Positions 3,203 to 64,000 of a stretch of 64,000 nt of DNA are shown here, piece after piece (positions within the stretch are counted from its first letter, which is position 1; each line of letters opens with the position of its first letter). This DNA comes from Aquila chrysaetos chrysaetos (lineage: Eukaryota > Chordata > Aves > Accipitriformes > Accipitridae): positions 62,001 to 126,000 of the forward strand of contig NW_024470388.1 in assembly GCF_900496995.4 (NCBI RefSeq). Reading direction: 5' to 3'. The notes under the pieces were generated by a model, which had not been told where the DNA came from, ran no database searches, and worked only from the letters and a program-made list of their open reading frames with translations. The translations under genes and the position numbers were made by a program.

Positions 3203-3210
3203 TTTTCAAT

Positions 3211-4927: not shown

Positions 4928-7900
4928 CCCCTAACCCTACCCCTAACACCTAACCATACGGTTCCCCGGAGCTAGGGTTCTGCTGGGGCTAGGGTTCCCC
5001 CGGCGCTAGGGTCACAGCACATTAGGGGTCCCCAACGCTAGGGTTAGGGGTGTTTAGGGCTGTGGTTAGGGGTCCTCAGGATTAGGGTTAGGGCAGGCTA
5101 GGGTTCCCCGAGGTTAGAGTTTGGGTGGGCTAGGGTTCCCTGGGGCTAGGCGACCTTGGGGCTAGGGTTAGGGCAGGCTAGGGTTCCCCGAGGTTAGAGT
5201 TTGGGTGGGCTAGGGTTCCCTGGGGCTAGGCGACCTTGGGGCTAGGGTTAGGGCGGGCTAGAGTTCCTCAGCATTAGGGTTAGGGCAGGCTAGTTTTCCC
5301 AGGGGCTAGGTTTAGGGCCAGCTAGTGCTCCCTGGAGCTAGGATTCCTTGGGGTTAGAGTGGGCTAGGGTTCCCCGGGCCTAGGTGTTCTCAGGGTTAGA
5401 TTTAGGGCAGGCTAGGTTTCCCCGGGGCTAGGGGTCCTACGGGCTGGGGTTAGGGCGGGCTAGGTTTCCCCGGGGCTAGGGGTCTTTGGCATTAGGGTTA
5501 GGGTGGGCTAGGGTTCTCCAGGCCTAGGGGTCCTTGGGGCAAGGTTTAGGGTGGCCTAGGTTCCCTGGTGCTAGGGTCTTCAGGGTTTGGGTTAGGATGG
5601 GCTAGGCTTCCCCAGAGCTAGGGGTCCCCGGGGTGAGGGTTAGGGCGGGCTAGGTTTCCCTGGAGCTAGAGGTCCCTGTGGTTAGGGTTAGGGCAGGCTA
5701 CGGTTCCCCGTGCCTTGACGTCCTCGGGGTTAAGGATAGGGCGGGCTAGGGTTCCCCAGGGCTAGGGTTCCTCGGGCTTAGGTATAGGGCGGGCTAGGGG
5801 TCCTCGGGGTTAGGGTGGGCTAGGGTTCCCCGGGGCTGGGTTTAGGGCAGGCTAGGGTTCCCTGGCTGGGGCTCAGGGTCCTCGGGGTTAGTGTTAGGGC
5901 AGGCTAGAGTTTCCCGGGCCTAGGTGTCATTGGGGCTGGGGTTATGGCAGGCTAGGGTTCCTCAGCGTTAGGGTTAGGGCGGGCTAGGTTTCCCCAGGGC
6001 TAGGTTTATGGTGGGCTAGTGTTCCCTGGAGCTAGGATTCCTTGGGTTTGGGGTTAGGGCAGGCTTGCGTTCCCCAGGGCTAGGGGTCCTCGGGGCTAGT
6101 GTTAGGGTGGGCTAGGGTTCCCCGGGCCTAGGCATCCTCGGGGCTAGGGTTTGGGTGGGTTAGGGTTCCTCGGCATTAGGGTTAGGACTGGCCAGGTTTC
6201 CCCAGGGCTAAGTGTCCCCAGGGCTAGTGCCAGGGAAGGCTATGTTTCCCTGCAGCTAGGGATCCTCGGTGTTAGGGTTAGTGCAGGATAGGGTTCCCTG
6301 GGGCTAGGGGTGTTCGGGGTTAGGTTTAAGGCGGGCTAGGTTTCCCCGGGGCTAGGGGTCCTCAGGGTTAGCGCTAGGGTTCCCTGGGGCTAGGGGTCCT
6401 CGGGGCTAGGGTTAGGGTGGGGCTATGGTTCCCTAGGCCTCGACGTCCTTAGGGTTAAGGCTAGGGTTCCTCAGGGCTAGGTTTAGGGTAGGCTGGGGTT
6501 CCCTGGTTCTAGGGGTCCTCGTGGTAAGGGTTAGGGCAGGCTAGGTTTCCCCGGGGCTAGGGGTCCTTGGGGCTAGGGATCTTTGGCGTTAGGGTTTGGG
6601 CAGGTTAGGGGTCCTTCAGGCTAGATTTAGGGCAGGCTAGTTTTCCCCGGTGCTAGGGTCAAGGCAGGCTGGGGTTCCCTGGGCCTAGGTTTCCTCGGGG
6701 CTAGGGTTAGGGTGGGCTACGGTTCTCCGGGCTACAGTTCCCCGGGGCTCAGGTTCCCCGGGGCTAGGGGTCCTTGACATTAGGGTTATGGTGGGCTAGA
6801 GTTCCCTGGGGCTAGGCGTCCTTGGTGTTAGGGTTAGGGTGGGCTAGGGTTCCCCAGGGCTAAGGGCCCTTGGGGCTAGGGGTCCCCGGGGCTAGGGTTA
6901 AGGCAGGTTAGGGTTCCCCAGGTCTAGGGTTAGGGCAGGCTATGGTTCCCTGGGCCTCGTCGTCCTCGGGGTTAAGGTTAGGGCAGGCTAGGGGTCTCCA
7001 GGGCTAGGCATCCTCAGGGTCAGGTTTAGGGCAGGCTAGATTTCCCCGGGGCTAGGGGTCCTCAGGGTTAGCTTTAGGGTAGGCTAGGGTTCCCTGGGGC
7101 TAGGGGTCCTCGGGGCTAGGGTTTGGGCGGGCTAGGTTTCCCCAGGGCTAAGTTTAGGGCAGGCTAGGGTTCCTCCATGTTACGGTTAGGGCTGGCTAGG
7201 ATTCCCTGGGGGCTAGTGGTCTTCAGGGCAGGGTTTCCCGAGCCTAGGGTTCCTTGGGGCTATGTTTAGGGTGGGCTATGTTTCACTGGGTCTAGGGGTC
7301 CTCTGGGCTAGGGGTCCTCAGGGTTAGGGTGGGCTAGGTTTCCTTGGGCCTAGGGGTCCTCGGGGCTAGGGTTCTCCAGGGCTAGGGGTCCTCAGCGTTA
7401 GGTTTAGGGTGGGCTAGTATTCCCCAAGGCTAACGGTCCTCCAGGCTAGGATTAGGGAAGGCTAGGTTTTCCCGGGGCTAGCAGTCTTTGGGGTTATGTT
7501 TCCCCCGGCCTAGAGATCCTTGGGGCTAGGGTTAGGGCAGTCTAGGGATCCACGGGGCCAGGGGTCCTCTGGCTATGGTTCAGATGGGCTACGTTTCCCT
7601 GGGGCTACCGGTCTTCGGGGTTAGGTTTCCCCAGGCTTAGGTTTCCTCGGGGCTAGTGTTATGGCAGGCTAGGGTTCCCTGGGGCTAGGCGTCCTTGGCG
7701 TTAGGGGTTATGGCGGGCTAGGGTTCCCTGGGGCTAGGCGTCCTTGGTGTTAGGGTTAGGGTGGGCTAGGGTTCCCTGGGGCTAGCTGTCTTCGGGGCTA
7801 GGTTTCCCCGGGCCTAGGGTTCCTTGGGGCTAGGGTTATGGTGGGCTATATTTCGCTGGGGCTAGGGGTCCTCGTGGTAAGGGTTAGGTCGGGCTAGTTT

Positions 7901-9170
7901 TCCCTGGGCCTAGGGTTAGGGCAGGCCAGCGTTCCCCGGGGCTAGGGGTCCTCGGGGCTAGGGATCTTTGGTGTTAGGGTTTGGGCAGGCTAGGGGTCCC
8001 TTCGGGCTAGGTTTAGGATGGGCTAGTTTTCCCCGGTGCTAGGGTCAAGGCGGGCTAGGGTTCCCTGGGGCTAGGCTTCCTCAGGGTTAGGGTTAGGGTG
8101 GGCTATGGTTCCCCAGGCCTCAACGTCCTTGGGGTTAATTTTAGGGCGGGTTAGGGGTCCCCGGGGCTAGGGTTAAGGCAGGCTAGGTTTCCCCAGGTCT
8201 AGGGTTAGGGCGGGCTAAGGTTTCCTGGGCCTAGGGTTCCTCGGCATTAGGATGAGGGCGGGCTTGGATTCCCAAGGGCTAAGGGTCATTGGGGTTAGGG
8301 TTAGGGGCGGGCTAGGTTTCCCCACAGCTACATTTAGGGCAGGCTAGTGTTCCCTGGAGCTAGGATTCCTCGGCCTTAGGATGAGGGTGGGCTAGGGTTC
8401 CCCGCGCCTAGGGGTTCTCAGGGTTAGGGTTAGGGCGGGCTAGTATTCCATGGAGCTAGGATTCCTTGGGTTTAGGGTTAGTGTAGGCTAGGGTTCCCTG
8501 GGGCTAGGGGTTCTCTGGTTTAGGGATAGGGCAGGCTATGTTTTGCTTGGGCTAGGGGGCCTATGAGCTAGGATTAGGGCAGGCTAGGGTTCCCCGGGCC
8601 TGGGGTCCTCGGGGCTAGGATTAGGGCGGGCTAGCGGTCTTCGGTGTTAGGGTTAGCGTGGGCTAAGGTTCCCCGGACCTCGAAATCCTTGTGGTTAAGA
8701 TTAGTGTGGTCTAGGGTTCCCCAGGGCTAGGGTTCCTCGGCCTTAGGATGAGGGCAGGCTAGGTTTCCCCAGGGCTTGATTTAGGGCAGGCTAGTGTTCC
8801 CTGGTGCTAGAGGTCCTCAGTGTTACAGTTAGGGCTGGCTATGCTTACTCGGGGTTAGGGTTAGGGTGGGCTAGGGTTCTCTGGACCTAGGTGTTGTCAG
8901 GGCTAGGGTTAGGGCGGGCTAGGTTTCCCCAGGTCTAGGGGTCTTCGGCATTAGGGTTAGGGTGGGCTAGGGTTCCCCGGGCTAGGTTTAGCACGGGCTA
9001 GGTTTCTCCATGGCTAGGGGTTCTCCAGGCTAGGGTTAGGGCGGGCTATGGTTTCCCACGCCTTGAAGTCCTCAGGTAAGGGTTAGGGCGGGCTAGGGGT
9101 CAGCGGGTTAGGAGTCATATTGGTTGTGGTTAGGGCAGGCTAGGCTTAGGGGTCCATAATGAGTGTGTAG
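4928..9170 (+). repeat. Degenerate telomere-like TAGGG minisatellite
   Basis: About 4.2 kb of variants of a 40-50 bp unit. Typical modules are GGGCTAGGGTTCCCCGGGGC, TAGGGGTCCTCGGGG and TTAGGGTTAGGGCGGGCTAGG. GTTAGGG dimers occur in many units. The first 40 bases (4926-4965) carry the opposite strand (CCCTAACCCTACCCCTAA). The array keeps strong strand asymmetry to its end, and no coding frame over 60 codons exists in it. It looks like a subtelomeric or interstitial satellite derived from telomere repeat, not a true chromosome end. Confidence 0.85.
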
Positions 9171-19930: not shown

Positions 19931-21726
19931 ATGAAGGTGCAAAGCCTCATTTTGAGAGTCCCAAGCCTTCTTTATAGGGTCCAAAAGGCACATTTTCACT
20001 TCAGGCCCAAACCCTCATTTTTTAGCTTCCCAAGCCTGCTTTTTGGGGACCAAATCCTCCTTTTCATGGACCATAGGCTCATTTTTAGTATTTGGTCTGC
20101 AATTTTGAGGGCCCGAAGCCTCCTTTTGCGCATCCGAAGACCCCTTTTTAGGGTGCAAAGCCTTAGTTTTGGGTACCAAAGCATCCAACTGAGGGCCCCA
20201 AACCTAATTTCAGGGTTCAAAGCCTCATTTTCATTTCTAAAGCACCATTTTTAGGGCCCAAAGCCCCATTCTTAAGGCCCTGACCTTCCTTCCGAGAGTC
20301 CAAACCCCCCTTTCACAGCTCTAAGCCTCAACTGTAGTGCCCAAAGCCCTATATTTGGCACCAAAGCTTCATTTCTGGGGGCCATAGAGGAGCCAATAGG
20401 TTCACCTTGTTGTCAGGGTCCAAAGCGTATTTGTAGCATCTCCCCCATTCTTTGCGGTGACAAAGCCTGCTTTTGAGGGCTGAAATCCTCATTTGGAGGG
20501 TCCAAACCTGTCTTTCATTACCCATAGCCTTTTTTTAGTGAGCCGCAGTTTCATTTTTAGGATCTTGTGGTGGTGTTTGTGTCACTGCTGATAGGGCAGG
20601 CCCAGGAACGTGGCTTGTGCAGATGCTTGTGATGTCACTTGTGGCCCAGTTCCTCTGCCGGAGAGGGCAGAGGCTGAGCGGCCTCAGGAGAAACAGGTGA
20701 GAGGCGGACCGGGGGCAGCTGGGGCAAGGGAGGGAGCAGGGCCAGGACCAGGACCAGGGGTGCTACATGCACAGGAGCAGCTATCTCATTTTTATAGAGC
20801 AGCATCATTTTTAGGATCCAGCCAGTTGCTTTGAGGCTCCAAGCTGCATCCTGCGTTTTCCAAGCCCTCATTTTTATGCTCCAAACCCCTCTTTTAGGGC
20901 CCAAAGCCTCAGTTTTAGAGTCCAAAACTTCGATTCTGGGGTCGAAAACCTCCTTTTTATGGTCCAAACCCTCGCTTTTGGGGCCCGGGGGCTCATTTTC
21001 AGGGTTTTAATCGCTCTTTTGGGGTAACATGCCTCATTTTTAGGTTTCAAACCTTCCTTTTTAGGACTGAGAGCCACTTTCTAGAGGTCACAGCTTCGTT
21101 TATAAGGCCCAAGTACACTTTTTTCTGTCCCAAAGCCTCCTTTTGAGTGGCCGAATACTCCTTTTAGCGTCCCAACCCTTATTTTTGTCAACAAATGCTC
21201 ATTTTGATGGTCCAAAGCTTTTATTTAGAAACTCCAGAGCCTCATTTCAGGGTCCACAACCTTCTTTCTAAACTCAAATTTTGAGGCTCCGAACCTCATT
21301 TTTAGGGCCCAATGCCTCATGTTCAAGGTCCAAAGGATCGTTTTTTACCATCCAGCCCTTCATTTTTAGGGTCCTGAAGCCTCATTGCAAGGGCCCACAT
21401 ACCCATTTTTAAGGTCCAAACCCTCCTTTTACAGCACAAACCCCACTTGTAGAGCCCCAAGCCTCATTTTTAGGGCCCAGACCCTCACATGTAGATTCCA
21501 AAGCCTCATTTTGAGGGTCTAATAACTCATTTTTTTGCTTCCAGAGGCCCATTTGGAGGGTCTGAAGGTGCATTTTTAGGATCCAAGTCCTCATTTGTAG
21601 GGTTGAAATTTTCAGGGCACAGAGCTTCCTTTTTCAGGTCTGAAGAGTATTTTTTAGGAACCAAACCTTAATTTTGAGGCCCTAAGCCTCACAAAAGTGA
21701 TCAAACCTGCAACTTTAGGGTACAAC
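19931..21726. repeat. CCTCATTTTTAGGGTCCAAA minisatellite, array 1
   Basis: Degenerate tandem units of about 25-30 bp in which CCAAAGCCTCATTTTTAGGG alternates with variants (AAACCCTCCTTTT, GGGCCCAAAGCC). An unrelated GC-rich insert sits at 20575-20790. The array continues to 21726, where LTR-like sequence begins. A second array of the same family lies at 62730-64000. No gene is seen. Confidence 0.85.
20610..20790 (+). other. Recurrent exon-like GC-rich element, copy 2
   Basis: Shares about 170 bp with 62545-62725, and a shorter core with the minus strand at about 18255-18150. The core encodes a short Glu/Ala/Arg-rich frame (PERAEAERPQEKQ) ending at a consensus splice donor (CAG|GTGAG). The other copies read EGAEAEQPEEKQ and EGAEAERPEEK. 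Frame preservation in three copies suggests an exon of a dispersed gene family, possibly the MROH-like family seen at 25.5 kb. The protein is not identified. Confidence 0.4.
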
Positions 21727-23879
21727 TGTGGTAGAAAAAGACTTAACTGCAAGGTTCAAGCAAACGACTTGAACTTCTGTTGTGGTTTAACCCCAGCCAG
21801 CAACTAAGCACCACGCAGCCGCTCACTCACTTCCCCCCCACCCAGTGGGATGGGGGAGAAAATCGGGAAAAAGAAGCAAACCCCACGGGTTGAGATAAGA
21901 ACGCTTTAATAGAACAGAAAAGAAGAAACTAATAATGATAATGATAACACTAATAAAGTGACAACAGCAATAATAAAAGGATTGGAATGTACAAATGATG
22001 CGCAGTGCAATTGCTCACCACCCGCCGACCGACACCCTGCTAGTCACTGCACGGCGATTCCCTGCCCCCACTTCCCAGTTCCTATACTAGATGGGACGTC
22101 CCATGGTATGGAATACCCTGTTGGCCAGTTTGGGTCAGGTGCCCTGGCTGTGTCCTGTGCCAACTTCTTGTGCCCCTCCAGCTTTCTCGCTGGCTGGGCA
22201 TGAGAAGCTGAAAAATCCTTGACTTTAGTCTAAACGCTACTTAGCAACAACTGCAAACATCAGTGTTATCAACATTCTTCTCATACTGAACTCAAAACAT
22301 AGCCCTGTACCTGCTACTAGGAAGACAGTTAACTCTATCCCAGCTGAAACCAGGACAACTTCACTCACAGACTTAACTGCAAGGTTCAAGCAGATGATTT
22401 ATTTGAACTTCACTTACAGACTTAACACACCACTATTGCAGGTTTTACAGATACAATGGAGGAATGCACTATTGCAATTTTTAAGGCAAGAGTAGTACAC
22501 TATTACAACCACAACCGATTCACAGACAACCATAAGCACACACGTGTTTACAAACTTAAAGCATAAACAATATTCACTTACCCCTCCAGGTAAGGGCTCT
22601 CAATCCCAGGGAAGTTACCTTGACCGGCGTCCCGATCAAGGGGGGAAGGGTTTCCTTCACAAGCCAACTGTATAGTTGGAGAAGTGACTCCCCATTTCCA
22701 ACCTGAATCTTAGAGTTTTTATCCCCTGACTTGTGGAATGGTGTGTATGACTATGTCTGAGTGGATTATGATATATGCCTAAATGGATTATGTATATCTG
22801 AGTGGAGTTTCCCCTTATCTTTCCTTTGTTGGTCTGTGATTGTTTGAATACACAAGGTTGTAATTTGAAACTGAAGCTGAAACCCTCCAGGTTTTGGGTT
22901 TTTTTTTTTAACCTTGCTTCCTCAGCAACTGAATAGTGGTTGGACTGAGACTCAGGGCATACTATTTGTTGAGGGATTTCAAGGCTCAGTTCAGGTTTTG
23001 GTTCTTTGAATGGCACAGCCACTGCCCTGTTTAGTTTAGGGTTTATCAGACAACCCAGGGCTAAGCTGTCTACACAGCTCCCTGTGAGTCATCTCTGCAG
23101 AGAGACAGGGCCTCAAGGCAACCCAAGGCTGGGTCACTTTTGTAACCCCCCCCCATGAGTCGCCTGTGTGCACTAGACATGGTGAAACTCATTTGTGAAC
23201 TATGAGCCGGACAATCCACACACCCCCTTGCTTTCTGGACTCCTTCTCAAAGAGGAGCCTAGGGGTGGCTAGATCCACTCCTAGTCTCAGACTTGGTCAA
23301 CGGTTTATGTTTAAAAGGATGAGGTGTAGGGACTGTGGAAAAGAGAGAAGGAAAAGAGGGAGAGAGAGAAAGAGAGAAAAAAAGAAAGAAAGAGAGAAGA
23401 AAAGGGTTTCACCAGTCCTGGGTCCAACGTTGGTCCAGCCAGCGTAGAGATCCAGTTCCGGAGGGCGTGCGCTGAGAACTCGTTCTCCCTTCTTTTATAG
23501 CGTGTTTTAGTTGATGGTCTTGACATGTGCAGTTCCCGTTCCCGGGGTTCTCTGGAATCGGTCAGTGAGCTTTGGGGGGGGTGGTTCATCGCAGAGTTGC
23601 CTCTTTTTCCCTGCTGGCACAACCGCTTAAGATAGAAGCACAGTCCCATCCTCCGTGGGGCCTCCTCCTCCAGGCGCATATGCTGTGCTCCTTCTCCTGG
23701 TCACTTAAGATAAGGAATTGCGGCTTTGGAGAAGCGTGGTCCCACCCTCCATGGGGCCCTCTCCTCCAGCCACATTGTCCTGTTCACAAAACTCCAGCGT
23801 TTTTACAGAGGCCGTTTTCTCCACCAAAGTTCTTTAATGAATGTTTGAGACATTGACTATAATTTGTCAGACCATCACA
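21727..23879 (-). mobile_element. Putative large LTR, interrupted by another LTR
   Basis: On the minus strand it would start TGTGATGGTCTGAC (23879) and end CTTTTTCTACCACA (21727), so it has TG...CA ends. The segment CTTAACTGCAAGGTTCAAGC occurs on both sides of the inserted LTR (near 21742 and 22374). A GA-rich simple repeat lies at 23338-23404. No matching target duplication is seen at the outer ends, so the limits are tentative. No gene is seen apart from short random frames. Confidence 0.35.
21778..22357 (-). mobile_element. Solo LTR, avian ERV family, copy 1
   Basis: The plus strand begins TGTTGTGGTTTAACCCCAGC and ends AACCAGGACA; on the minus strand this is the familiar TGTCCTGGTTT...CAACA LTR of birds. 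It is flanked by a 5-bp duplication ACTTC (21773-21777 and 22358-22362). It is about 95% alike, by eye, to 63059-63634. Confidence 0.85.
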
Positions 23880-28900: not shown

Positions 28901-30806
<1,906 letters not shown>

Positions 30807-31794: not shown

Positions 31795-33364
31795 TCACAT
31801 CATGCCCAGCTGCAGCAGGGTGTTGGCGTACATCATGGGCTTGACATTGGGGTGAGGCTGTGGGAGAAAGGGGGGGGGTGAGGGGGCAAATCAGCTCCTT
31901 CCACCCCCCCCCCCCCAAAAAAAATCCCAGCCCTAGGGCACCCATGGGTGCTACCACCTGTAATTACCCCCCCCAACAGCCCCCCAGCCCCTGAGCCCCC
32001 CCCAAATAGCCCCTATAAACCACCCCATAAGCCCCAGAGCCACCCCTACAGCCCCCCAAATAGCCCCTATGAACCCTCCCATAAACCCCTGAGCTCCCCA
32101 CTAGCCCCCATGAAGCCCCCCCAATCACCCCAGGCTGGGGAAGGGGCTGACAAAGGGCTTGAGGGGGGATCTGGGGAACTATTGGGGGGGGGCTGAGGGA
32201 GGGTTTTGGGGAGTCCCACAGTTTGGGGGGGGAGGAGGTTGCGGGGGGGGGGCTCGGGTTTGAGGAGGGTCACTGGGAGGTTCAGGGAATATATGGAGGT
32301 TTCAGGGGGGCTCCAGCGTGGGTTTTAGGGGTCCCCAAGGATAGTTTGGGGCTCCCAGGGTTGAGGGGGGTCCCTGGGGTGGGTTTTGGAGGGTCCAAGA
32401 TTTAGGGGGGGGCAGGATGTCACCAAAGAGGGTTTGCGGGGCACAGATTTGGGGGTATCCCTAGGGAGGATTTCAGTGGTCTTTGGGGACAGCTTTCAGG
32501 GATCGCAGGTTCAGGGGGTCCCCAGGTTTTTGAGGGGGTCCCAGATTCAACAGGTCCCCAGGCAGGGGGTAGGGGGGTCCCTAGACTCAGGGGGAGTGGG
32601 GGGGAGTGTCCCCCCCGAGACTCACCACTGCTGTGAACTGGTGGAAGTCAGGGCGCAGGTCGCTGCCTCGCAGGTGAATGTAGGAGCCCTTATTGCCCAT
32701 CTGGTCGCTGGCAGGGGGGACAGGGATGCTTGGGGACACGAAAGCATGGCCCCCCCATGGGGACACCGAGGCTTGGGGACCCCCAGGGACAGGGACACTT
32801 GGGGACATGGAGGTACAGCTCCGTACACAGACAGCAAAGCTCAGGGACAACCAAGGCTCAGGGACCCTTGGGGACACTGAGGTAGAGCCCCGTGCAGGGG
32901 CACTGAGGCTCAGGGACGCTTGGGGACACTGAGGCATGGTGCAGAGACACCAAGGCAACATCCCACACAGGGATGCCGAGACATGGTGACACCCCAGTGA
33001 TGGGAACAGGAGATGCTTTGGGACACCGAGGCACAGGGGACACCCGGGGACCCAGCTGAGGGGACACCGAGTCTCAGGGGACACCGAGGGTGCACATAAG
33101 CTGGGGAGCAGGCACAAGGGGGCCACTCCTCCCCAGCGGCAGTGGCACCCCCCCCCCCCCCCCCCCGGGTGCCGGTGGCACTCACCAATAGTTGGGGGCG
33201 GAGAAGACGGTGACGCATTTGCCATCGTGGGCCACCTCGTAGCCCTCAGGCTTCACCTCGTGGCTGCGGATGATGTAGTCGAGGCGGTTGCGCTCCAGGA
33301 AGCTCTTGGTGACGTCGGGCCCGAACTGGCAGCTGACTCCACGTTTGCTGATGGAGCGGCCATT
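31795..33364 (-). CDS. PPP5C: PPP5C, last three exons (C-terminal part of phosphatase 5)
   Basis: Serine/threonine protein phosphatase 5 C-terminus. Exons on the minus strand are 33364-33186 ([18 protein letters not shown] through VFSAPNY), 32707-32626 ([19 protein letters not shown]) and 31857-31795 ([20 protein letters not shown], stop TGA 31797-31795). Splice sites are all canonical and no frameshift is present. IIRSHE supplies a catalytic His region and SAPNYC is a PPP-family signature. The first exon here begins exactly where the plus-strand PPP5C piece (47952-53314) ends (DPQP|NGR), so the two are parts of one gene in opposite orientations. Order and strand relative to CALM match human 19q13. 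Confidence 0.92.
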
Positions 33365-34411
33365 CTGCGGGAATGCAGCGAGACGAGGACGAGGAACGAG
33401 GACAGAGGCCGAGGCGAGACGAGCGAGGACGAGGGACGAAGGACGCGGCCCCCCCCTCAATGGCGGCTCCGCTCCGATCCCGCGTCTCCACTCGAGCGCG
33501 CCGTCCTCGCGTCTCACTTCCAGGTCACGACGGCGCCGCCGCTCCACTTCCGGGTCACCACACCGCGGCGGACAGGGAGCGACCAAGACGCATGCGCGGA
33601 GGATGAGGGGGCGGGGCGGGGCGAAAGTGGGCGGAGCAGAGCAAAAGGGCGGAAATAAAAAGGGGGCGTGGCGGAAAAGAGGGGGCGGGGACGCGATGGC
33701 ACGGCCGGCAGGAGTGGATGCGGGGGGGAGGGAGGGGAGCATGGAAACAGTCATGGGGGGGGCTTGGGACGGGAGGGAGGGACGGGAGGGACGGTAAGGG
33801 ACGGGACGGGACGGGACGGGTCGGGGGGAGTGTCTGGAAAACAGCCATGGGGATGGGTGGGGTCTCCAGGTGGATTTGGGGAGGGATTTGGGGGGAGGGG
33901 GACCCACATGTGAGTGGCAGGTGCCGGGGCCTGGGTCCCCCAACCCGGCCAGGGTGGGGGGGTGTGCAGGGGGGTGGGGGGGCGGTCCCGGGGCAGGGGG
34001 TAGGGCTGGGGGGGCTGCCCGGTTTGCCCCACGCACAATCGGAAGGGGCGGGGCGAAGCTGGATGGGAGCGGGGTCTGGCCGGGTGCCGAAGGGGGCGGG
34101 CCCTACCGGGGGGGCGGGCCTTCTGGCCGGCTGCCGAGGGAGGCGGAGCATAGGAATGGGGGGGCGGGCCTGGGACTACGACTCAGTGGGGCGGGGCCAG
34201 GGAGGTAGGGCGGGGCCAAGGGGCGCGGGCTGGGGGGCTTGGCCGCGGGTTAGGGGCGGGGCCAATCTGGGGGGCGGGGCTGGGGCGGAGGCTTTGGCCG
34301 GCGGCCCGGGGGGGGGCGTGGCGGCGGGGGGGCGAGGTGGGGAAGGGGGCGTGCCCGGGGAGGGGGCTCGGCGCGGTGTGTGCGGGCGCGCAGAGGGTGG
34401 CGGCGGCGGCC
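33365..34411. promoter_or_regulatory. Junction region: PPP5C intron edge, CpG promoter-like block, HIF3A upstream
   Basis: One kilobase holds the break between inward-cut PPP5C and the start of HIF3A. 33370-33680 is a CpG-rich, promoter-like block. It has a duplicated composite CACTTCCRGGTCAC at 33515-33528 and 33545-33558 (ETS site joined to a TGACC half-site on minus) and an NRF1-like GCATGCGC at 33590-33597. 33720-34410 is G-rich with many GGGGCGGGGC boxes and GCGTG cores leading to the HIF3A first exon. No splice donor for the missing PPP5C neighbour exon is found. Frames through it are not credible genes. Confidence 0.5.
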
Positions 34412-46125
<11,714 letters not shown>

Positions 46126-47951
46126 GGGGGGGGGGCTGCATGTGGAAGGGCCCCCCCCCCCCCCCCAAACCATCAGCGGGTCCAAACCACTGACTCCCCC
46201 CCGCCTTGATGGGGACCCCAAAACAGCCCCTCTCCCAAAAAAAACCAAGGAAGAGGGGGGGGGCCCAAAACACCACCCCCCCTGATACCCAATGGGGGAC
46301 ACCAAAAAAGCCAGCCCCCCCAACCAGGGGGGCCCCAACCCCATGTGTCTGGTGGGGGGGGATGACACCAAAAGCCATGACCCCTCCCACAGACCCTGGG
46401 GTGCCCCCAGTCCTCCCCACTCCCCCCATTTATCCCCCCTTAACCCCCCAAGCCCCCCACCCCTGGGGGCTCTGAGTGACCCCCTGGCATGGGGGGAACC
46501 CCCAATCTGTTCCCTCAACCCATGGGGACCCCCCCCACCCTGCCCCTTGGGGCCCCACCTGGGCACCCCCTCCCCAGCTCTGGGGACCTCTCAAGAGGCC
46601 CGCCCCCAAAATCCTCCCCCATAGGGGACCCACCCAGCCCCCACTTTTGGGGTCCCCCCAATCCTCCCATGGGGCCTCCCACAGTCCCCCCTTCTACCTT
46701 GGCCTGGCCCCCCCGGGGGGGCTCGGGGGGGGGCCCATCCCCCCACTCGGTGCTGGGCTGAAAATGCCCCTTCAGGGGGGCCTCACGGACCCCCTCCCCA
46801 AATCCAGGACCACCGGGGCAGTGCCCCCCCCCAGAGGACCCCCCTTTTATACTGGTCCGTCCTGCGCAGCCCCAGGGCTCCGGAGAGGGACGCTCTCATG
46901 TGAGGTCTTCATGCAAAAGCCTTAGGGGTGAGCTGCCCTCGTGTGAGAGGTCCACGTGAGCAAAACTCATGCGAGAGCCGCCCTTGTGCAAGAGCCCTCC
47001 CCCCAACCACCCTCGCTCTGCTCTCGTGCCTGAGCCTGGGCAGTGGGGGGGGAGCTTGCATGAGGGGCCCAGCCCTTGCACGATGGCCCTCGCACGAGGG
47101 GGGGGTCAGACGCCGCTGCCCAGAGCTGCTGGGACCCACATGCACACACCCAGCCCCCCCCCCCCCATGCGAGGCCGAGTGTGCCCCTCCCCGCTGCCCC
47201 CCAAAATGTCGCTTTGGGGGGGCCCTATACTGCTCCCCCTGCCGCTGTTCCCCCCCCGTGCGCTTGCACACACTTGTGCAAAGGGGGCATGCGGGGGGGG
47301 GGGGGCTTACGCATTGACACACGCATACGCCCCCCCCCATGGGGGTGTCACACGGGGACATGCCCAGTGTCACCCACCCCCACACAGCCCCTCCCCCCCA
47401 CCGTGCTGACCCCCTCCCTCCCTCCCCCATAAACCTGCTCTGAACCCAGTGAGGGCTCCGCCTCTGCCTGGGGGGGACACGGTGGGGGACACAGGGGGGT
47501 GATGGGGACATGGGGGGATGATGGGGACATGGGGGGGGACATGGAGGGTTTGGTGGGGACATGGGGGGGACATGGAGGGCAATGGAGACATTGGAGGGAC
47601 ATGACAGGGTGATGGGGACATGAGGGGGACAAGGCAGGGTGATGGCGACATGGAGGGATGTGGGGACAAGAGAGGGACACAGCAGGGCGATGGGGACAGA
47701 GGGGGGCTGTAGGGACCCCCGGGGCTGCGGGGACTTGGAGGACACGGGGAGGCCGCGGGCTGCACTGTGACCGCTCTGGTACCCCTTCACCCCTCTCTAT
47801 GGTCCCGCCCGGCTCCGCCCTCCCCCCCCCGCGCGGCGCGCGCCCGTTTACGACACTGCCCCCTCTCGTCCCGCCGTCTTTGCGACGGCGGTACTTGGCG
47901 GCGCGGCGGGCCGCGCTCCCAGCGGTTGCCAGGGCGCTTTACGGCCCAGCG
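46126..47951. other. HIF3A-PPP5C intergenic region and PPP5C promoter
   Basis: G/C-rich low-complexity sequence. 46905-47110 contains CTCGTGCGAGAG-type modules and 47480-47700 contains GGGGACATGGGGGG units. From about 47800 it becomes CpG-dense (CCCGCGCGGCGCGCGCCCG, GACGGCGGTACTTGGCGGCG), which should be the PPP5C promoter and 5' UTR. No gene is seen. Confidence 0.5.
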
Positions 47952-50900
47952 ATGGCGGAGGGAGAGCGGGCGGAGAGCAGCGGTGGCCCCGGCCCCGGCC
48001 CCGGCCCCGGGCGGCCCCCGAGCCCGGCCGAGCTGGAGCGGGCCGAGGCCCTCAAGACCCGCGCGAACGAGTTCTTCAAAGGTACCGGCGGCGGCGGCGG
48101 GGGGGGGCCTGCCAGATAGGGAGCCATGGGGGGCAACCAGGGGCGGGGGCTGCTAGATAGGGAGCCGTGGGGGGCAATTAGAGGTAGGGGCTGCCAGATA
48201 GGGAGCCGGGAGGAAGGGGGGCAATGAGGGGTGGGGGCTGCCAAATAGGGAACCATGAGGGGCTGCCAGATAGGGAGCCATGGGGGTCAATTAGAGGCAG
48301 AGGCTGCTAAATAGGGAGCTGGGGGGGGGGGCAATGAAGGGCAGGGGCTGCCAGATGGGGAGCTGTGAGGGGGGGCCATAAGGGGCGGGGGGGCTGCCAG
48401 GTAGGGATCTATAGGGGGCTGCCAGACCGGCAGCCGTGTCGGAGGCAGTCAGAGGAGCAGGCTGCTGTATAGCAAGCCGTTGGGGGGGCAATTAAAGAAG
48501 AGAACCGCTGCGAGATTGGGAGCTGTGTAGGAAGCAAGGGTCGGCCCCAGGGGGGGTCAGGGCTTGCCCACAGGGATGGGGGTGCCACCCGTGGGTGGGG
48601 GTCCCATCTAGCTGATGCCCCACCGGTGGCCCAGGGAAGGACTATGAGAACGCGGTGAAGTACTACAGCAGCGCCATCGAGCTGAACCCCACCAACGCCA
48701 TCTACTATGGGAACCGGAGCTTGGCCTACCTGCGCACCGAGTGCTATGGCTACGCCCTGGCCGATGCCACGCGCGCCGTCGAGCTTGACAAGAAGTACAT
48801 CAAAGGCTACTACCGCCGTGCCGCCAGCAACATGGCCCTGGGCAAGTTCAAGGCCGCCCTCCGCGACTATGAGACGGTGAGGCCAGGCACCTCAGGGTGC
48901 CCCTCAGCAATCCTCTGGTGTCAGTGTGTCCCCCTGGAGTTTGGGGCAGGCTTGGGGACCCCCTTGGTGTCAGTGCCCCCCCCCCCCCGAGATCGAGGGA
49001 GGCTTGGGGACCCCCTCATCGCCTCCCTGGTGTCAGCGTGTCCCCCTGGAGTTTGGGGCAGGCTTGGGGACCCCCTTGGTGTCAGCGTGTCCCTACCCTG
49101 AGGTTGGAGGAGGCTTGGGGACCCCCCTTGTCACCTCCCTGGTGTCAGCATGTCCCCCCCCGAGATTGGGGGAGGCTTGGGGACCCCCTCATCGCCTCCC
49201 TGGTTTGTCACGCGTGCCCCCGTGAGTCGGGAAGCTAGCTTGGGATGGGAGACCCCTGGTGTCAGCGTGTCCCCCCCTGATATCGGGGGAGGCTTGGGGA
49301 CCCGCTTGGTGTCAGCATGTACCGTGAGCTCAGGGGAGACTTGGGGACCCCCTTGTCACCTCCCTGGTGTCAGCATGTCACCCCAGAGATTGGGACAGGT
49401 TTGGGGACCCCCTTGTCCCCTCCCCAATGTCAGCATGTCCCTTAGAGTTGGATGGGTGGACCCTTTGGGGATGTCCTCTGTGTCCATCCCCCAATGTCCC
49501 CTATTGCTGGGGGAGGACCTTTGGGACCTCTTGTCCCCTCCCTGGTGTCAGCACATGCTATTAGAGCTTGGAGAGCTATGGGGACCATCTGTCCACCCCC
49601 CACTGCAAGGTCACCTAGAGCTGTGGGGACACTGAGAGGGATCCCCATGTCTCCATACTGGACCATGCCCCAGTGTGAAGAGGATCCTCAGGGTCCCCCC
49701 ATGACCCCCTCAGCATCAGTACATGCTCTGGAACTGAGGGACCCTTGGGGAAAAACACTGTTGTCCCACTAAACTCGTTTGTCAGCCCTGGGTGAGAGCT
49801 GGAGGGGGACCTTTGGGGCCCACTGTCCCCCACCATGTTTAGCATGTGCCCCAGAGCGTGGGATTGGTTGGGGACCCCCTTGTCCCCCCCTTCCCCTTGT
49901 CAGCGCATGCCCGAGCTGTGGGGACATTTGGGGACCCCCTTAGTCCCTCCGAGCATAAGCCCCAGACCTCAATCCAAGGGTCTCTATGTAACTTTGTCCC
50001 CTCTCAGGGACACCCCAGGGCAGTGGGGTGCTGGAGCCTGGGCGTCCCCGTCCTCTGACATGTCGTCGTCGTCCCCCCCCCCCAGGTGGTGAAGGTGAGG
50101 CCCAATGACAAGGACGCCAAGCTGAAGTACCAGGAGGGTCACAAGAGTCGTCAAAGCAGAGAGAAGGCCTTCGAAGCGGGCGATGCCAGCGATGGAGCAC
50201 AGCGCTCTGTTGTCGACTCCCTTGACATTGAGAGCATGAGTGAGCCCCCCTGACCCCCCTTGCTCTTTGTCCCCCCCCCTCAAAATCAAGGCACCCCTTT
50301 CTCCACAGGCAGGGCGGAAGGAGGAGGGGGCCGTGAGGGTCCCCAGTAAACGTTTGGAGTCCCCTCTGGGGTCCGTGGGGGGGTTTGGAGGGGTTGCTGT
50401 GAGGGTATTCGGGGAGACCTTTGAGGGTTATTCCGCAAGGCCTTGGACTTCCCCTTGGGAGGATTCTGGGGGTCTCATGAGGGTCTTGGAGGTCTCCATA
50501 AAGATTTTTGGGGTGGGGGTGAGGGCTGTGAGAGTCTTAGGGGACATGAAGTTCCCCAGCAAAGCCTCAGGTCCCACCAAATGGAGGGTCTGGGGCGGGT
50601 ATTGTGATGGTCCCTAAGCGGATTGGGTCCCTGTAGGGTCCTTGGGACCACTTGAGGCCCCTGGGGAGGTCAGGGTCCCTGTGAGGGTATGGGGGGGTCC
50701 GATGGGGGGTCCCTTGTGAGGATCCCTGACAAAAAAAGTCAGGGTCACCTGGGAGGGTCTGGGACTTGGGGGCCAGCAGAGGCTCGGGTCCCAATAATTG
50801 ACACCTTGAGGAGGATGTGGGGGTCTCCAGGAGGGTCTTAGGGGACCATGGGGGTCCCCATGAGAGTCCCAAGCAGAGACTTAGGTTACCCCAGAAGGTC

Positions 50901-53314
50901 CCTGGAAGGGTCTCAGGATCCCACGAGGGTCTTGGGGCACCCATGAAGATCCCCAGCAGAGGCTTGGGATCACCATGAGGGTCCCTGTGAGGATCCTGCC
51001 ATCCCTGTGATAGTCTTGGGTTCCCCATGAGGGTCTTGGCATCCCAGTCAGGGTCCCCATGAGGGTCTTGGTGTCCCTGTGAGGGTGTCAGGGTCCCCGT
51101 GAGGGTCTTGGGGTCCCCATGAAGGTGCCCAGCAGAGCTTTGGGGACCCCCCATGAGTGCCCCAGCCAAGCTCAGCATCCCAGAAGGCTTTGGGGTTGTT
51201 CATCAGGGGCTGTGAGCTTGCAGGGAAGGGACAGCAGGGGTGTGATGCCCTTTGGGGGACTTGTCCCATTTCCTCTCATGTCAAGGCCCCATTTGGGGGG
51301 GGTTCGTTTTGACAGCCATCGAGGACGGAGTACAGCGGCCCCAAGCTGGATGGCGGCAAGGTGACGTTGGCTTTAATGAAGGAGCTGATTGCAGTTGCGT
51401 TACAAGGAGCAGAAGAAAGAACACTCCACAGAAAAATGTGGCCTACCAGGTACCCAGTTCCCACAAACTCCCACCAGTCCCATGCGGGCTCTGCCCTGTC
51501 CCCTGACATGTCCTTCTTGTCAACCTCTGCTGACCCTTTGTCCTGGCAGATCCTGGTCAGGTGAAGGAGGGCTGGCCAAGCTCCCACGTTAGTAGAAACG
51601 ACGTTGAGGAGGGGGGTGCCCTCGACGGGTGCCGGGCTTGCTGGGGTGTGTGAAGTCCCAAGCGGTGACGTGCCCCTGGCTCATCCCAAACACAGACGGA
51701 GAAGTGACGGTGTGCGGGGACACCAATGGGCAGAAGTTACTAAAGACCTTGCGAAACATCTTCAGCCAAACGGACTGCCATCCGAGTCGAACCCTTATGT
51801 ATCCCCCAGGAGGGAGCGGAGTTGAGCCGCCCCTGCCCCAGGGTCTCACCGGGATCGATCCCACCCCCGTGGTGGGGACAGGTGTGGGGACGGGTAGCAC
51901 GAGGGGACAGGGACCTGGGGAGCTGTTTTCCTGAACCGGCTGCAGATATTCAACGGGGACTTCGTGGACCGTGGGTCCTTCTCGGTCGAGGTCATCCTCA
52001 ACGCTATTCGGCGCTTCAAGCTCCTCTACCCTGAACACTTCCACCTGCTCCGGGTAATGCGGCCACGTGGGGTGACGAGTCCCATCCCCCCCCATCTGGG
52101 TTGTTGGGGCCTGTCCCTCCCCCAGTTTGTTGGGGCCTCGTTCTTGCGCCAGGTCCCCTGTCCCAGGGTGGGGACCAGCTTTCAATGGGGCACACCACAT
52201 CATCTTCCTGGGTGTGGGGGCCGGGTCCCCTCTCCCGAGTGGTAGGGCCAATTGTCCTGTGTCCCCTGTCCCCTCCTGGGTTGCAGGCCCTGTCCTGGGT
52301 CCTGGCACCGTGCCCCAGTTGTGGGGCCACAGTTCTATCTCTGGTCCCGGGGTTGAGCGTGAGGGCCTTTCACGTGTCCTTGGACTTTGTGTCTTGTCCC
52401 CATCCGGGGCATGGGCCTTGTTCCCTGCCCACTCGGGGTGAACCGTGGGGCCTTGTCCCCTGCCTGGTCCCAGGCCTGCCAATGCCACCGCATCCCCGTA
52501 GGGAACACGAGACGGACAACATGAACCAGATCTACGGTTTTCGAGGGGGAGGTGAAGGCCAAGTACACAAGCGCAGTGTTTGCTCTCTTCAGCGAGGGTC
52601 TTTGAGTGGACTGCCGCTGGACCAGTGCATCAACGCAAGTGCTGGTGAGGGGGAACCGTTTGTCATCCCCCCTGTCCCCGGCCCAGCCCCTGGGGATGTC
52701 ACCGTGCGGGGGGGAGGGTTTGCCTGTGAAGCTCCTGTTGATTGGGGGGTCCTGCCATTCCTGTCCCCATGAGTTGGGTGATGATCCCTGTCCCTGCGGG
52801 GTTTTGGGTTGGGGGGTCCCAGGAGTCCGGGTGGTCCCTGTCCTCGTGGGCTTGGGGGGGGCCCCCCACCATCCTGTTCTTTGGGGGCTTGGGGTGTGCT
52901 CCCTGTCACAAATGGGGGTCCATGCCGTACCCCGGGGCCTGGGGGTCCCTTACCTCCCACCCTGGGTTGGTCCCCCACCAGGAGTAGATGGGGGACGGTG
53001 GTCCACTGCCGTCCCCATTGTCCCACGTAACCAATGGGCTTCTGTTTCCCAGATAATGCATGGGGGTCTCTTCAGCGAGGATGGAGTCACCCTGATGACA
53101 TCCGGAAGATCGAGAGGAACCGGCCAGCCCCCCGGCTCAGGGGGAGATGGACCCTGGAGATGCCCCTTACCCCTGCTGTGGAATCCCCAGCCATCTCGAG
53201 GGGACCTGATGTCCCCCCTGGCGGCAGATGAGGGGACCCTGACCCACCTCTCTGGCTTCCTCCAACAGGTCCCATGTGTGACCTGCTCTGGTCCTCCTCA
53301 GACCCGCAGCCCAG
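47952..53314 (+). CDS. PPP5C: PPP5C, 5' exons (TPR domain and most of the phosphatase core), frameshifted and cut by a gap
   Basis: Serine/threonine phosphatase 5: N-terminal TPR repeats that bind HSP90, then a two-metal PPP catalytic domain. Exons: 47952-48081 ([10 protein letters not shown]... to ANEFFK), 48635-48876 (TPRs: [20 protein letters not shown]), 50086-50239 (VVKV...[10 protein letters not shown]), 51316-51449, 51550-51612, 51696-51798, 51946-52053 ([18 protein letters not shown]), about 52502-52633, about 53053-53139, and 53269-53314 (MCDLLW). Exons 1-2 are clean. From 50086 on most exons carry 1-2 base insertions or deletions (GACGGAGTACAG in 51316; GGAACACGAG for the GNHE metal motif at 52502). 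GDTHG reads GDTNG (51725-51727). GDFVDRG is intact. The remaining exons are on the minus strand at 33364-31795. Confidence 0.88.
48100..48500 (+). repeat. GGGGCTGCCAGATAGGGAGC minisatellite, PPP5C intron 1
   Basis: About eight units of 40-60 bp containing GCTGCCAGATAGGGAGCC and GGGGGCAAT. Confidence 0.8.
48895..49450 (+). repeat. GTGTCAGCGTGTCCCCC minisatellite, PPP5C intron 2
   Basis: About nine units of roughly 60 bp (TGGTGTCAGCGTGTCCCCC, then GAGGCTTGGGGACCCCCTTG). Diverged units continue to about 49960. Confidence 0.8.
50640..51160 (+). repeat. CATGAGGGTCTTGGGGTCCC minisatellite, PPP5C intron 3
   Basis: Degenerate 20-30 bp units with GAGGGTCTTGGGGTCCCC and AGCAGAGGCTTGGG. Confidence 0.7.
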
Positions 53315-53416
53315 GTGAGTTGCCCCAGGCGTGGGTCCCCAGCACATCACCCTCTGCCCTGCCGCCTTGGGGATGGCCAACTGGCATTGTCCCCCAGGGG
53401 TCCCGGTGGACAACTG

Positions 53417-53916
53417 NNNNNNNNNNNNNNNNNNNNNNNNNNNNNNNNNNNNNNNNNNNNNNNNNNNNNNNNNNNNNNNNNNNNNNNNNNNNNNNNNNNN
53501 NNNNNNNNNNNNNNNNNNNNNNNNNNNNNNNNNNNNNNNNNNNNNNNNNNNNNNNNNNNNNNNNNNNNNNNNNNNNNNNNNNNNNNNNNNNNNNNNNNNN
53601 NNNNNNNNNNNNNNNNNNNNNNNNNNNNNNNNNNNNNNNNNNNNNNNNNNNNNNNNNNNNNNNNNNNNNNNNNNNNNNNNNNNNNNNNNNNNNNNNNNNN
53701 NNNNNNNNNNNNNNNNNNNNNNNNNNNNNNNNNNNNNNNNNNNNNNNNNNNNNNNNNNNNNNNNNNNNNNNNNNNNNNNNNNNNNNNNNNNNNNNNNNNN
53801 NNNNNNNNNNNNNNNNNNNNNNNNNNNNNNNNNNNNNNNNNNNNNNNNNNNNNNNNNNNNNNNNNNNNNNNNNNNNNNNNNNNNNNNNNNNNNNNNNNNN
53901 NNNNNNNNNNNNNNNN
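53417..53916. other. Assembly gap, exactly 500 N
   Basis: A run of exactly 500 N, so a scaffold gap of assumed size. It begins 102 bases after the last plus-strand PPP5C exon. The right side is AT-rich and shows no continuation of PPP5C. Confidence 0.99.
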
Positions 53917-56589
53917 CCACTTTTTTCCTTTCTGATAATGCATGAATCATAATCAGAAATCTCTCTCCAGTCCATTAACAAACTAAATATTGCACAGAGT
54001 CACAGAAGTACACAGGTGACTATTGTTACATCTGCCTTGATATTAGAGGGATCAGCGTGGTAAAAATACTTGCAGTTAGTAAATATTCATGTTGCATTTA
54101 TTAGCATTTTCATTCCAGTACACACATTATGAAAAAATGTTATTGTGATAGAAAGGCTAGGAAGGTATTCCAACAAGGAAGACTGCTTTGCCGCTATGTT
54201 AATGTCTTACGTTATAGTGCAATAATCCTGTGCTCTACAGAGTCTCAGACTGGTTCACTGGGGGGGTGTATGACTTTAAAGGACTTGCAGTATAGGGTCA
54301 AAAAAGCACAGATGTTGTAGCAAATCCTTGAAATACCGTAAACTCATCATGTCTGGTCTGAGCCTATCCAAAAAAGTATTCGCCGTGGCCAGACCAAAGG
54401 TTCTGTGCTGTGCCTGGCTAATTCAACAGCAGGGCACCCTGATTGGGAGAACCACTAATCCTCAAATGCAGCATTAAAGAAGGTGAGACCAAGGCTACAG
54501 AGATCTTTGCTAAATTGAGCGTAAGAAAAGAATCGTACGTTCCTGAGCCTCAAAAGAATTTCTACAAAATCTTAGCTATTTCTGCAATGACTTCAGGAGA
54601 TAACTTTACAGCAAGTGACTCCTAACAGAATTTTCAGATGCCTTTAGGAATAAGAAAGGACTCTAGTAATCTCACCCTTATATGCTGTCTCTAGAAAGCA
54701 TATCCCTGAGAAACAGAGGAAAAACAGAGTGAAGAGATGGGGAAGTCGACAACATTATTCGCAGTAGCTGCTCTCATTCGATCAGATCAAGACTGGCACA
54801 GTTTTAGCAGAGCTACGGAATAGATGTGAAAGCCTCAGACATTTCTGACTGACAGGTAACACTGTGGGATGCAAATAGTAAGATTGTGTTCAATTTTTTT
54901 TTTTTTTGCAACACAATAAAAAGTGAAGTTAAAAGTATCAAATCCACCAGACAGAAAAGATTTCCATCCTACTCAAGTTATGAGAGGAAAAAAATTCTCT
55001 CAGGAGATTGAAAGAGATGTACGCTATAAAGAAAGACACACATCTATTGTTCCCAAGCCCATCTTTCAAAACTTCTGTCATCACTTTATTTTCTCCCACA
55101 GGTCTTCTCCAATTCAGTAGATGTCACTCCAGTGAAAAACCACAACACAAAGCTGACATTTATTGAATAAGGGCAGGGCCGCATGAACTCTACCATGGCA
55201 CTGCAGACGAATCTAAACACCATCTTTACTCACAAATTTCCATTCAGTTCAGTGAAAGCAGAATTGCTTCTGAGTTCTGGGAATAATAAAGAGAAAATTC
55301 TGCTTTCTGTTGCACCTAAGAACAGGCTTGCAGAAGCGCTGATGGGAAGCCTGCTTAAAAGAAAGGGGCCATGTAGGAGTCCTGGAAAGCAGAATATGCT
55401 TTCTACCATCTAGAAAAGGAGAATCTTTTCTACGACACAAGTAACGCCCACCTTTAGCACTGCTGCTTCTTTAGTGCAGTCGCACTAATTTGCAATTTTT
55501 CTGCACATCAGTGAGCCAGTTCTGTTCAGAGGGAAGACTGGTATCACTACTGAGAGCTCAGGTCAGGGCCTGAGCCCATTTTTCTGTATTCCATCATATG
55601 GAGACAAAAAAAACAAAACCACCCTCAACAAGAAGAGAGAACCTGTCTGAACATACAATCAAAAATATATTCAATGTGTACCCAGATTCATAAGTACTTC
55701 CCTGCAATACCACAAACTCATTACAATCCCCCGCTGAAACATACACCCACAGCTCAACAGGTACCAGGGGTGTTCCAATCCGGGTTGTCACCTCATTAAG
55801 GAAAGGGATGGCATCACATTGTGGGCATCCAGGCCTTAACTCCTCTAAGGTTCAAGAATAGTCACATGTGGGCATTTCATGGCCTGACTCGTACATTCCC
55901 AAGATAGATGTCAAAATGTGGATTTCCTGGAGTTCACTGTTGGTAACAGCCTAGCAGAAGCTAGGAAGGGCCAGCAGAGACATAGCAGAAACATGTGCAA
56001 ATTCCGCATGAAATAATTTGTGTAGCCCTTTGTATACCATTTTATCCCTTTGAATACCATTTCATGAGACCCTTTCTGCAAATCAAAGCAGGTTCTCACG
56101 TTGTCTGTAATGGCATATGTCTCCACCAAGAACTAAACACAAACAGTGTGGGTTTTTGCATTCTGGGACTTATAGTTTTTAAAATGCAAGTCCTGGATTT
56201 TGTTACACTCACGCATCTGGCCAGCCGCTATGGTAATTAGGAAAGAAATCGCTTCTTTTCGTACTGGGAGACAACACTTAGCACTTTCACATTTCATGCA
56301 GCTTTTCTACCAGGAAGAAATGAAAAGGACACGAGTCAACTGGCAAAAACCCACAGGTCCTTGCTTGGTGAAACCTTCCCAGCAACCACCTGCTGCCCTC
56401 TGACTGACAGCTGCTCCCGCACAGGGCTCAGCCCCCTCCCTCCGTGGCTTCTGGGATGCCTCTTACCTCTCTTCTTCTTCACCCCTGCTGTGGCCTGGCA
56501 ATCCCTGAAGCAATCAAAAATGTTTCACTCACAACAGAGGAAAAACAAGTCAAGGAGAACAACAAAAAACCCAAAACACAGGGGAATTA
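53917..56589. other. AT-rich sequence without a recognised gene
   Basis: Ordinary AT-rich bird intergenic-type DNA. Frames are short (at most 81 codons) and lack any motif I recognise. A T-run lies at about 54894-54907. No transposon ends, tandem arrays or splice-bounded coding blocks were found. Confidence 0.45.
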
Positions 56590-62544: not shown

Positions 62545-62730
62545 ATGCGTGGCTTGTGCGGGTGCTCGTGATGTCATTTGTGCCCCAATTCCTCTGCCAG
62601 AGGGGGCAGAGGCTGAGCAGCCTGAGGAGAAACAGGTGAGAGATGGGGGCAGCCAGGGCAAGGGAGGGAGCAGGGCCAGGGCCAGGGCCAGGGGTGCTGC
62701 AGGCACAGGAGCAGCTATCTCATTTTTAGA
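62545..62730 (+). other. Recurrent exon-like GC-rich element, copy 3
   Basis: Near-copy of 20610-20790 with the same preserved short frame (EGAEAEQPEEKQ) and CAG|GTGAG donor. It is followed, as at 20.8 kb, by CCTCATTTTTAGG minisatellite. Confidence 0.45.
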
Positions 62731-64000
62731 GCGCAGCATCACTTTTAGGATCCAGCCAGTCATTTTAGGGTCCAAGCCGCATCTTGAGGGTCCAAACCCT
62801 CATTTTTAGGCTCCAAACCCCTCTTTTAGGGCCCAAAGCCTCAGTTTTTAGCATCCAAAACTTGGATTCTAGGGTTGAAAGCCTCGCCTTTTGGGGTCCA
62901 AACCCTCGCTTTTGGGGCCCGGGGGCTCATTTTCAGGGTCCAGGGACTCATTTTCAGGGTTTTAATCGCTCTTTTGGGGTAACATGCCTCATTTTTAGGT
63001 TTCAAACCTTCCTTTTTAGGACTGAAAGCCACTTTCTAGAGGTCACAGCTTCGTTTATGTTGTGGTTTAACCCCAGCCAGCAACTAAGCACCACGCAGCC
63101 GCTCACTCACTCCTCCCCACCCAGTGGGATGGGGGAGAAAATCAGGAAAAGAAGCAAAACCCACAGGTTGAGATAAGAACAGTTTAATAGAACAGAAAAG
63201 AAGAAACGGATAATGGTAATGATAACACTAATAAAATGACAACAGCAATAATGAAAGGATTGGAATGTACAAATGATGCGCAGCGCAATTGCTCACCACC
63301 CGCCGACCAGCACCCAGCTAGTCCCCGAGCGGTGATTCCCCACCCCCACTTCCCAGTTCCTATACTGGATGGGACGTCATATGGTATGGAATACCCTGTT
63401 GGTCAGTTTGGGTCAGGTGCCTTGGCTGTGTCCTGTGCCAACTTCTTGTGCCCCTCCAGCTTTCTCACAGGCTGGGCATGAGAAGCTGAAAAATCCTTGA
63501 CATTAGTCTAAACACTACTAGCAGCAACTGAAAACTTCAGTGTTATCAACATTCTTTGCATACTGACCTCAAAACATAGCACTGTACCAGCTACTAGGAA
63601 GACAGTTAACTCTATCCCAGCTGAAACTAGGACAGTTTATAAGGCCCAAGTACACTTTTTTCTGTCCCAAAGCCTCCTTTTGTCTGTCCAAAGCCTCCTT
63701 TTCAGGGACCACAGGCTCAGTTTTAGGATCCAGTCTGCAACTAGGAGAGCCCAAGGCCTCATTCTGAGGGTCCAAATACTCAACTGGAGGGCCCAAAGCC
63801 TCATTTTAGAGGCCAAGCTCCTCGTTTAGGGTATAAAGCGTCACTTGTTTAACGTACAACCCCTCATTTGGAGCCTCCAAAGACCCATTTTTAGGGCGCA
63901 AAGCCTTCGGGTTTGGTACCGAAGCATCCCTTGAAGGCACAAAACCTGATGCAGGGCTCAAAGCCTCAGTTTCATTTCCAAAGCCCCATTCTTAGGGCCC
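62731..64000. repeat. CCTCATTTTTAGGGTCCAAA minisatellite, array 2 (duplicated segment)
   Basis: Same unit family as 19931-21726. Blocks line up in order with the first array (TTTTAATCGCTCTTTTGGGG, AACATGCCTCATTTTTAGG, CACTTTCTAGAGGTCACAGC). The array is split by the LTR at 63059-63634 and runs off the end of the window. Confidence 0.85.
63059..63634 (-). mobile_element. Solo LTR, avian ERV family, copy 2
   Basis: 576 bp, plus strand TGTTGTGGTTTAACCCC to AAACTAGGACA, very similar to 21778-22357. It is flanked by the 6-bp duplication GTTTAT (63053-63058 and 63635-63640). The paralogous sequence at 21098-21103 has a single GTTTAT with matching flanks and no LTR, which is the pre-insertion state. 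Confidence 0.9.

Follow-up and report, generated by a model that had tools for sequence, protein, structure and literature searches.

Opposite-strand pieces of PPP5C around HIF3A in a golden eagle scaffold: a probable assembly misjoin

False duplications in VGP assemblies have been described that contain more erroneous k-mers, the copies being set apart by gaps or linked through sequence filled in wrongly (PMC9516828, available part). Long-read assemblies also contain mis-joins, inversions among them, and an unpolished copy of TLK1 carrying frameshifts has been described (PMC8081667, available part). The golden eagle locus reported here shares with these cases a second gene copy, a larger number of sequence errors, and edges marked by gaps or by joins lacking support (PMC9516828, PMC8081667). 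The same accounts, in the portions available, describe genes cut into groups of exons and called “-like”, read-length palindromic chimeras and, in general terms, mis-joins that include inversions. Unlike the eagle locus, they contain in these portions no gene divided over two strands by an inverted block, and the word inversion is absent from the main text of PMC9516828. A known gene-breaking inversion, as far as its published account was available, resembles the eagle locus in that a breakpoint inside one gene separates groups of exons. That inversion spans 1.3 Mb and was accompanied by RNA-seq for lost splicing, whereas the eagle block covers about 19–20 kb, with a gap and noise at one break.

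PPP5C is listed among the GC-rich hidden genes of birds (PMC5470226), and HIF3A was termed missing in birds in 2014 (PMC4290089), according to the available parts of both papers. In common with this class, eagle PPP5C and HIF3A lie in a stretch (28–52 kb) of about 62–70% GC (PMC5470226, PMC4290089); unlike hidden genes, the two are contained in the assembly, though in damaged form. For PacBio assemblies, GC-rich regions, indel errors and possible chimeric contigs have been discussed (PMC7757076, available part). Concerning the golden eagle itself, inversions have been reported relative to bAquChr1.4, some of them at gaps in that paper's own contact map, and the microchromosomes are stated to be absent from every golden eagle assembly, according to the part of the paper available (PMC13326411). 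The bAquChr1 assembly, which is probably that of our sequence, was produced from PacBio CLR reads (N50 19 kb) with Falcon-unzip, purge_dups, scaff10x, BioNano, SALSA2, arrow and 10X polishing (PMC8499043). No report of a split eagle PPP5C was found in the titles and abstract openings of part of the retrieved literature, and the main text of PMC12954441 contains neither HIF3A nor PPP5C.

Two complementary pieces of PPP5C

The window, the whole stretch of DNA analysed, comprises 64,000 nucleotides of Aquila chrysaetos chrysaetos (contig NW_024470388.1, positions 62,001 to 126,000). Gannet PPP5C (P0001, whose residue numbering is used throughout) was compared with it by tblastn and frameshift-aware alignment. 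Residues 1–391 fall on the plus strand at 47952–53314, and residues 392–498 on the minus strand at 33364–31798, the stop codon extending to 31795. Each of the 13 exons was found once, with no overlap and none missing between the pieces, which are exactly complementary around a single phase-0 intron, intron 10. HIF3A, on the plus strand, sits between them. A preliminary description had claimed just this arrangement, two complementary opposite-strand pieces around HIF3A, without overlap or missing part and with the break within one intron, and the alignments bear it out.

The minus-strand piece (31795–33364) consists of exons 13 to 11 (31857–31798, 32706–32626 and 33364–33188), and showed no frameshift over 106 codons, in agreement with its earlier reading as NGRS to the stop. 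Exons 11 and 12 are identical to those of Buteo (P0030), and exon 13 to that of the gannet. On the plus strand, exons 1 and 2 (47952–48876) are clean, exon 1 having four additional codons in a GP-type repeat relative to the gannet, without frameshift. Exons 3–10 (50086–53314, residues 121–391) resemble raw reads, with 25 frameshifts in 270 codons. The claim that the plus-strand exons at 47952–53314 cover PPP5C from the Met to DPQP holds for their extent, and fails for the readability of exons 3–10. The first 102 bases of intron 10 follow (53315–53416, plus strand), after which the contig ends at a scaffold gap of 500 N (53417–53916), the sole N run in the window. The second break lies in this gap or in the preceding 102 bases, and its earlier placement within 53315–53916 agrees with both the N run and the contig end.

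A joined translation of 333 aa, drawn from the readable exons of both pieces and leaving out exons 4–6, 8 and 9, had PP5 structures as its best match (best E 1.3e-161), in keeping with a TPR domain followed by the PP5 catalytic domain. As assembled, PPP5C is not one in-frame contiguous gene on a single strand. The eagle UniRef record for PPP5C (P0091) is identical to the window over exons 1–3 (95/95, 82/82 and 53/53 residues, respectively), and tracks the garbled later exons, differing where the alignment crosses splice sites. It then splices across the gap to 54183–54317 (45/45 residues).

Exons 10 and 11 were contiguous, by a strict pattern, in 90 of the 120 PPP5C homologues listed; among the other 30 are the eagle record, partial models, and sequences too diverged to fit the pattern, and these counts speak for the intactness of the gene in other species, not in the eagle. 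Eight of 11 named bird records picked were contiguous, the misses being eagle P0091 and two partial models. Buteo, of the same family, has an intact exon 10–11 junction (DPQPQ followed by NGRS). The proposal that flipping the block restores PPP5C fits this junction and the position of the break inside intron 10. PPP5C and HIF3A records are found on identically sized contigs in Patagioenas (pigeon), Dermochelys (leatherback), Crotalus tigris, Hipposideros and Pan paniscus. Since the records share contig size, the two genes are probably neighbours in pigeon, leatherback, rattlesnake, bat and bonobo. The human 19q13 order is presumably CALM-PPP5C-HIF3A.

Position and nature of the breaks

The first break had been placed within 33365–34411. 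The CpG profile supports the left end of this interval; its upper bound was based on an ATG at 34389, for which no annotated support was found, the eagle HIF3A model (P0241) starting at 37460, and the coding evidence allows 33365–37459. CpG o/e reaches 1.47 in 33365–33450 and 1.07 in 33365–33800, against 0.08–0.35 across nine other PPP5C intron stretches (introns 4–6 left out, several stretches being inside noisy sequence). TRF detected a simple array of GACGAG type at 33382–33445. As the sequence upstream of exon 11 is CpG-island-like, unlike PPP5C introns, the first break probably falls close to 33365, on the acceptor of exon 11 or in its vicinity, which makes 33365–33450 the probable first junction. 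The argument is weakened by the fact that exon 11 is itself CpG-rich (o/e about 1 over 33201–33400). The CpG-rich sequence at 33451–34550 is read from the same profile as HIF3A 5′ flank, and 33.4–34.5 kb is probably the CpG-island flank of that gene. The CpG-island-like 33365–33800 may also be a housekeeping-type promoter of some further gene.

Several mechanisms were considered and rejected. Whole-contig flipping during scaffolding is not a sufficient cause, because just one break is at an N gap: the first lies in continuous sequence, next to the clean exon 11. Repeat-mediated inversion was discarded since no inverted repeats were found except short weak matches. None occurred between the junction, the contig end and the right flank in the sequence present (gap interior excluded), the block gave no match to the left flank, and the junction, apart from the part where it overlaps the block, matched the block only weakly and over short lengths. 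A palindromic or fold-back read chimera was dismissed too, no PPP5C exon being duplicated and no inverted self-match occurring in the block. Finally, ten ORFs to the right of the gap contained no Pfam family except one chance-level match, and a divergent gene continuing into exons there was rejected on this search, which was not exhaustive.

The ungapped junction at 33.4 kb and the clean exon 11 would be consistent with a real inversion that disrupts a working PPP5C and is either fixed in eagles or polymorphic among them, and gene-breaking inversions have a real precedent in STARD5 of the greater horseshoe bat (PMC8081667, available part). We consider this reading very improbable nonetheless: no inverted repeats lie at the breaks, gap and noise coincide with one of them, Buteo PPP5C is intact over the junction, and a second HIF3A record exists on another contig of the same species (see below).

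Other features of the window were recorded. A repeat family is common to the flanks at 20003–22357 and 62548–64000, its longest matches being direct and up to 92% identical. Positions 1–9100 hold long imperfect tandem arrays, of GGGAAAAGA type at about 5–2730 and of GGGCTAGGGTTCCCC type at about 4960–9100. Two sites that we take to be ETS-like, CCGGAAGT and CTGGAAGT, are present on the minus strand in 33365–33800, the stretch abutting PPP5C exon 11. Rfam yielded nothing at gathering score.

Damaged exons, CALM and the second HIF3A

Frameshift-aware alignment covered 29 exons of three genes (PPP5C, CALM and HIF3A). From exon 3 to exon 10 of PPP5C, the frameshifts number 4, 6, 3, 4, 2, 4, 2 and 0, and 20 amino-acid differences come in addition. 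Exon 10, free of frameshifts, has two extra codons, and lacks a base just ahead of its donor (CCCAG, although CCC CAG is required by the protein). The tested parts of exons 1–2 and 11–13 had no frameshift in 208 codons (Fisher P = 6e-7), a figure to which exon 1 contributes its last 22 codons only; the whole of exon 1 was also without frameshift in a separate alignment. Outside PPP5C exons 3–10, and with the noisy exons 5 and 10 of HIF3A set aside, the tested exons of the three genes together gave 0 frameshifts in 732 codons. The damaged PPP5C exons are those within the last 3.3 kb ahead of the gap. Because the damage begins abruptly inside a gene with two clean first exons, exons 3–10 look like unpolished long-read sequence, and not like gene decay. 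G/C runs are shortened in 50121–53416, with 7 long runs in 116 versus 154 in 695 for 34412–47951 (P = 1e-5), but not significantly so relative to the adjoining 47952–50120 (11 in 91, P = 0.14).

This abrupt change bears on another possibility, namely that the plus-strand exons 1–10 are a decaying pseudogene, and that the 3′ piece belongs to a gene of its own, with the 33.4-kb CpG island as its promoter. Such a reading would account for the frameshifts in exons 3–10 and for the CpG-island-like sequence adjoining exon 11, but it has to accommodate clean exons 1–2 and ruined exons 3–10 in one gene. Moreover, no eagle-named separate C-terminal PPP5C protein was present among the 120 listed of 888 matches to the 3′ piece, in which clusters and the many nameless rows can hide one, and a separately annotated eagle protein of this kind was rejected on that count. 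We give this possibility very little credence.

The CALM gene lies on the minus strand at 28904–30563. Its exons 2–6 (30563–30534, 30060–29914, 29848–29744, 29670–29536 and 28930–28904) gave 148 codons without frameshift, and those of their splice sites that were read are intact. Calmodulin is a nearly invariant protein. Relative to the canonical sequence, six amino-acid changes were counted over the 148 codons, one of them in a calcium loop, and three of the six are of C>T/G>A type. This CALM may be a diverged copy, a pseudogene or an error.

The 11 HIF3A coding exons occupy 37460–45161 on the plus strand (458 codons tested). The best solved-structure match of this bHLH-PAS protein is HIF-3alpha (441 bits, compared with 366 and 350 for HIF-1alpha and EPAS1). 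Seven frameshifts were found, confined to two exons (39353–39462 and 43480–43611); exon 10 has two, one of which is at the exon edge and may be an artefact. The eagle record P0241 (NCBI, low-quality, contig of 228,822 bases) follows the window sequence, with 72/72 and 36/36 residues identical in two exons and the window's own variants in others. A second eagle HIF3A, P0276, is on another contig, of 937,100 bases, the two records presumably belonging to one assembly; the second locus on another contig of the species concerns HIF3A. The gene is present in birds, with at least 23 bird-named records among the 120 matches listed, and the chicken and Cinclus records are labelled neuronal PAS domain-containing protein 1. 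The HIF3A intron at 41509–42333 (plus strand) seems to exceed in length the read-through of about 110 codons found in P0276; intron length instability has been reported for chicken dot chromosomes, and a longer intron would fit it (PMC12954441, available part).

The window was compared with P0276 over 441 aligned codons, a count that takes in neither introns nor the central, frameshifted part of exon 5, and 17 of these codons differed. Six of the differences fall among 335 codons in the true frame; the other 11 fall among 106 codons of exons 11–12, for which P0276 uses a different frame. Where the two copies disagree in exons 3, 6 and 9, P0276 has the state of the eagle Morphnus (P0242), and its exon 5 stays in frame at the point where that of the window is broken; in exon 10, the window rather than P0276 has the Morphnus state. 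Judged on these sequences, and because P0276 fits Morphnus in exons 3, 6 and 9 and has an intact exon 5, the window HIF3A is the poorer copy overall. Given this second, cleaner eagle HIF3A on another contig, the scaffold is probably redundant or diverged. The scorable differences are of C>T/G>A type in 9 of 16 cases (P = 0.006 versus uniform substitution), and in 5 of 6 in the true frame. This excess looks like real mutation and not like read error; it argues against pure read error and leaves room for a true diverged duplicate.

The best rival to a misjoin follows from these data. It supposes a real, diverged second CALM-PPP5C-HIF3A block in which an inversion broke PPP5C, a functional copy existing elsewhere and contig-end noise being superimposed. 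The HIF3A codon differences with their C>T/G>A excess, as well as the six changes in CALM, point in this direction. Against it, the clean PPP5C exons have no change in 208 codons relative to Buteo and gannet, so that decay is not uniform, though HIF3A may evolve faster; the second break is at a gap, and the damage in exons 3–10 combines frameshifts with amino-acid differences. We hold this duplicate to be unlikely. We are a good deal sceptical also of its more specific form, a golden eagle copy decaying by C>T drift and cut in PPP5C by a real 20-kb inversion, in a dot-chromosome or W-linked gene graveyard.

Misjoin of an error-filled contig end

We think it likely that the opposite-strand PPP5C is an assembly artefact, in which an error-filled contig end carrying HIF3A and exons 1–10 was joined the wrong way round. 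A misjoin accounts for the fact that break, gap and noise occur together, and published parallels exist in the available parts of two reports (PMC9516828, PMC8081667). An assembly inversion had already been put forward as the simplest cause, and this fits a second break at the contig end and raw-read-like exons. The true adjacency would run from 53416 to 33364 via the missing portion of intron 10, and the join at about 33365–34411 would be false, the outcome of a faulty overlap between contigs or of a gap filled with the wrong sequence. The noise may stem from low coverage by long reads together with short-read polishing that failed, perhaps since the reads were drawn to the better copy. The scaffold as a whole is likely a redundant copy. 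The ungapped first break, the clean exon 11 and the C>T/G>A excess in HIF3A are evidence against a misjoin, as is the fact that no intact eagle PPP5C was seen. What is new here is the set of frameshifts in exons 3–10, the CpG content at exon 11, the second HIF3A and the lack of inverted repeats at the breaks.

The fault is already in public databases: the protein sequence of P0091 is scrambled, its model running through frameshifts and over the gap, and an eagle HIF3A entry bears the label low-quality. A survey of birds for lost, inverted or rapidly evolving genes would score a spurious event if it drew on these entries. The locus also illustrates that technical causes can give a GC-rich gene island in a bird the appearance of being inverted, broken and fast-evolving.
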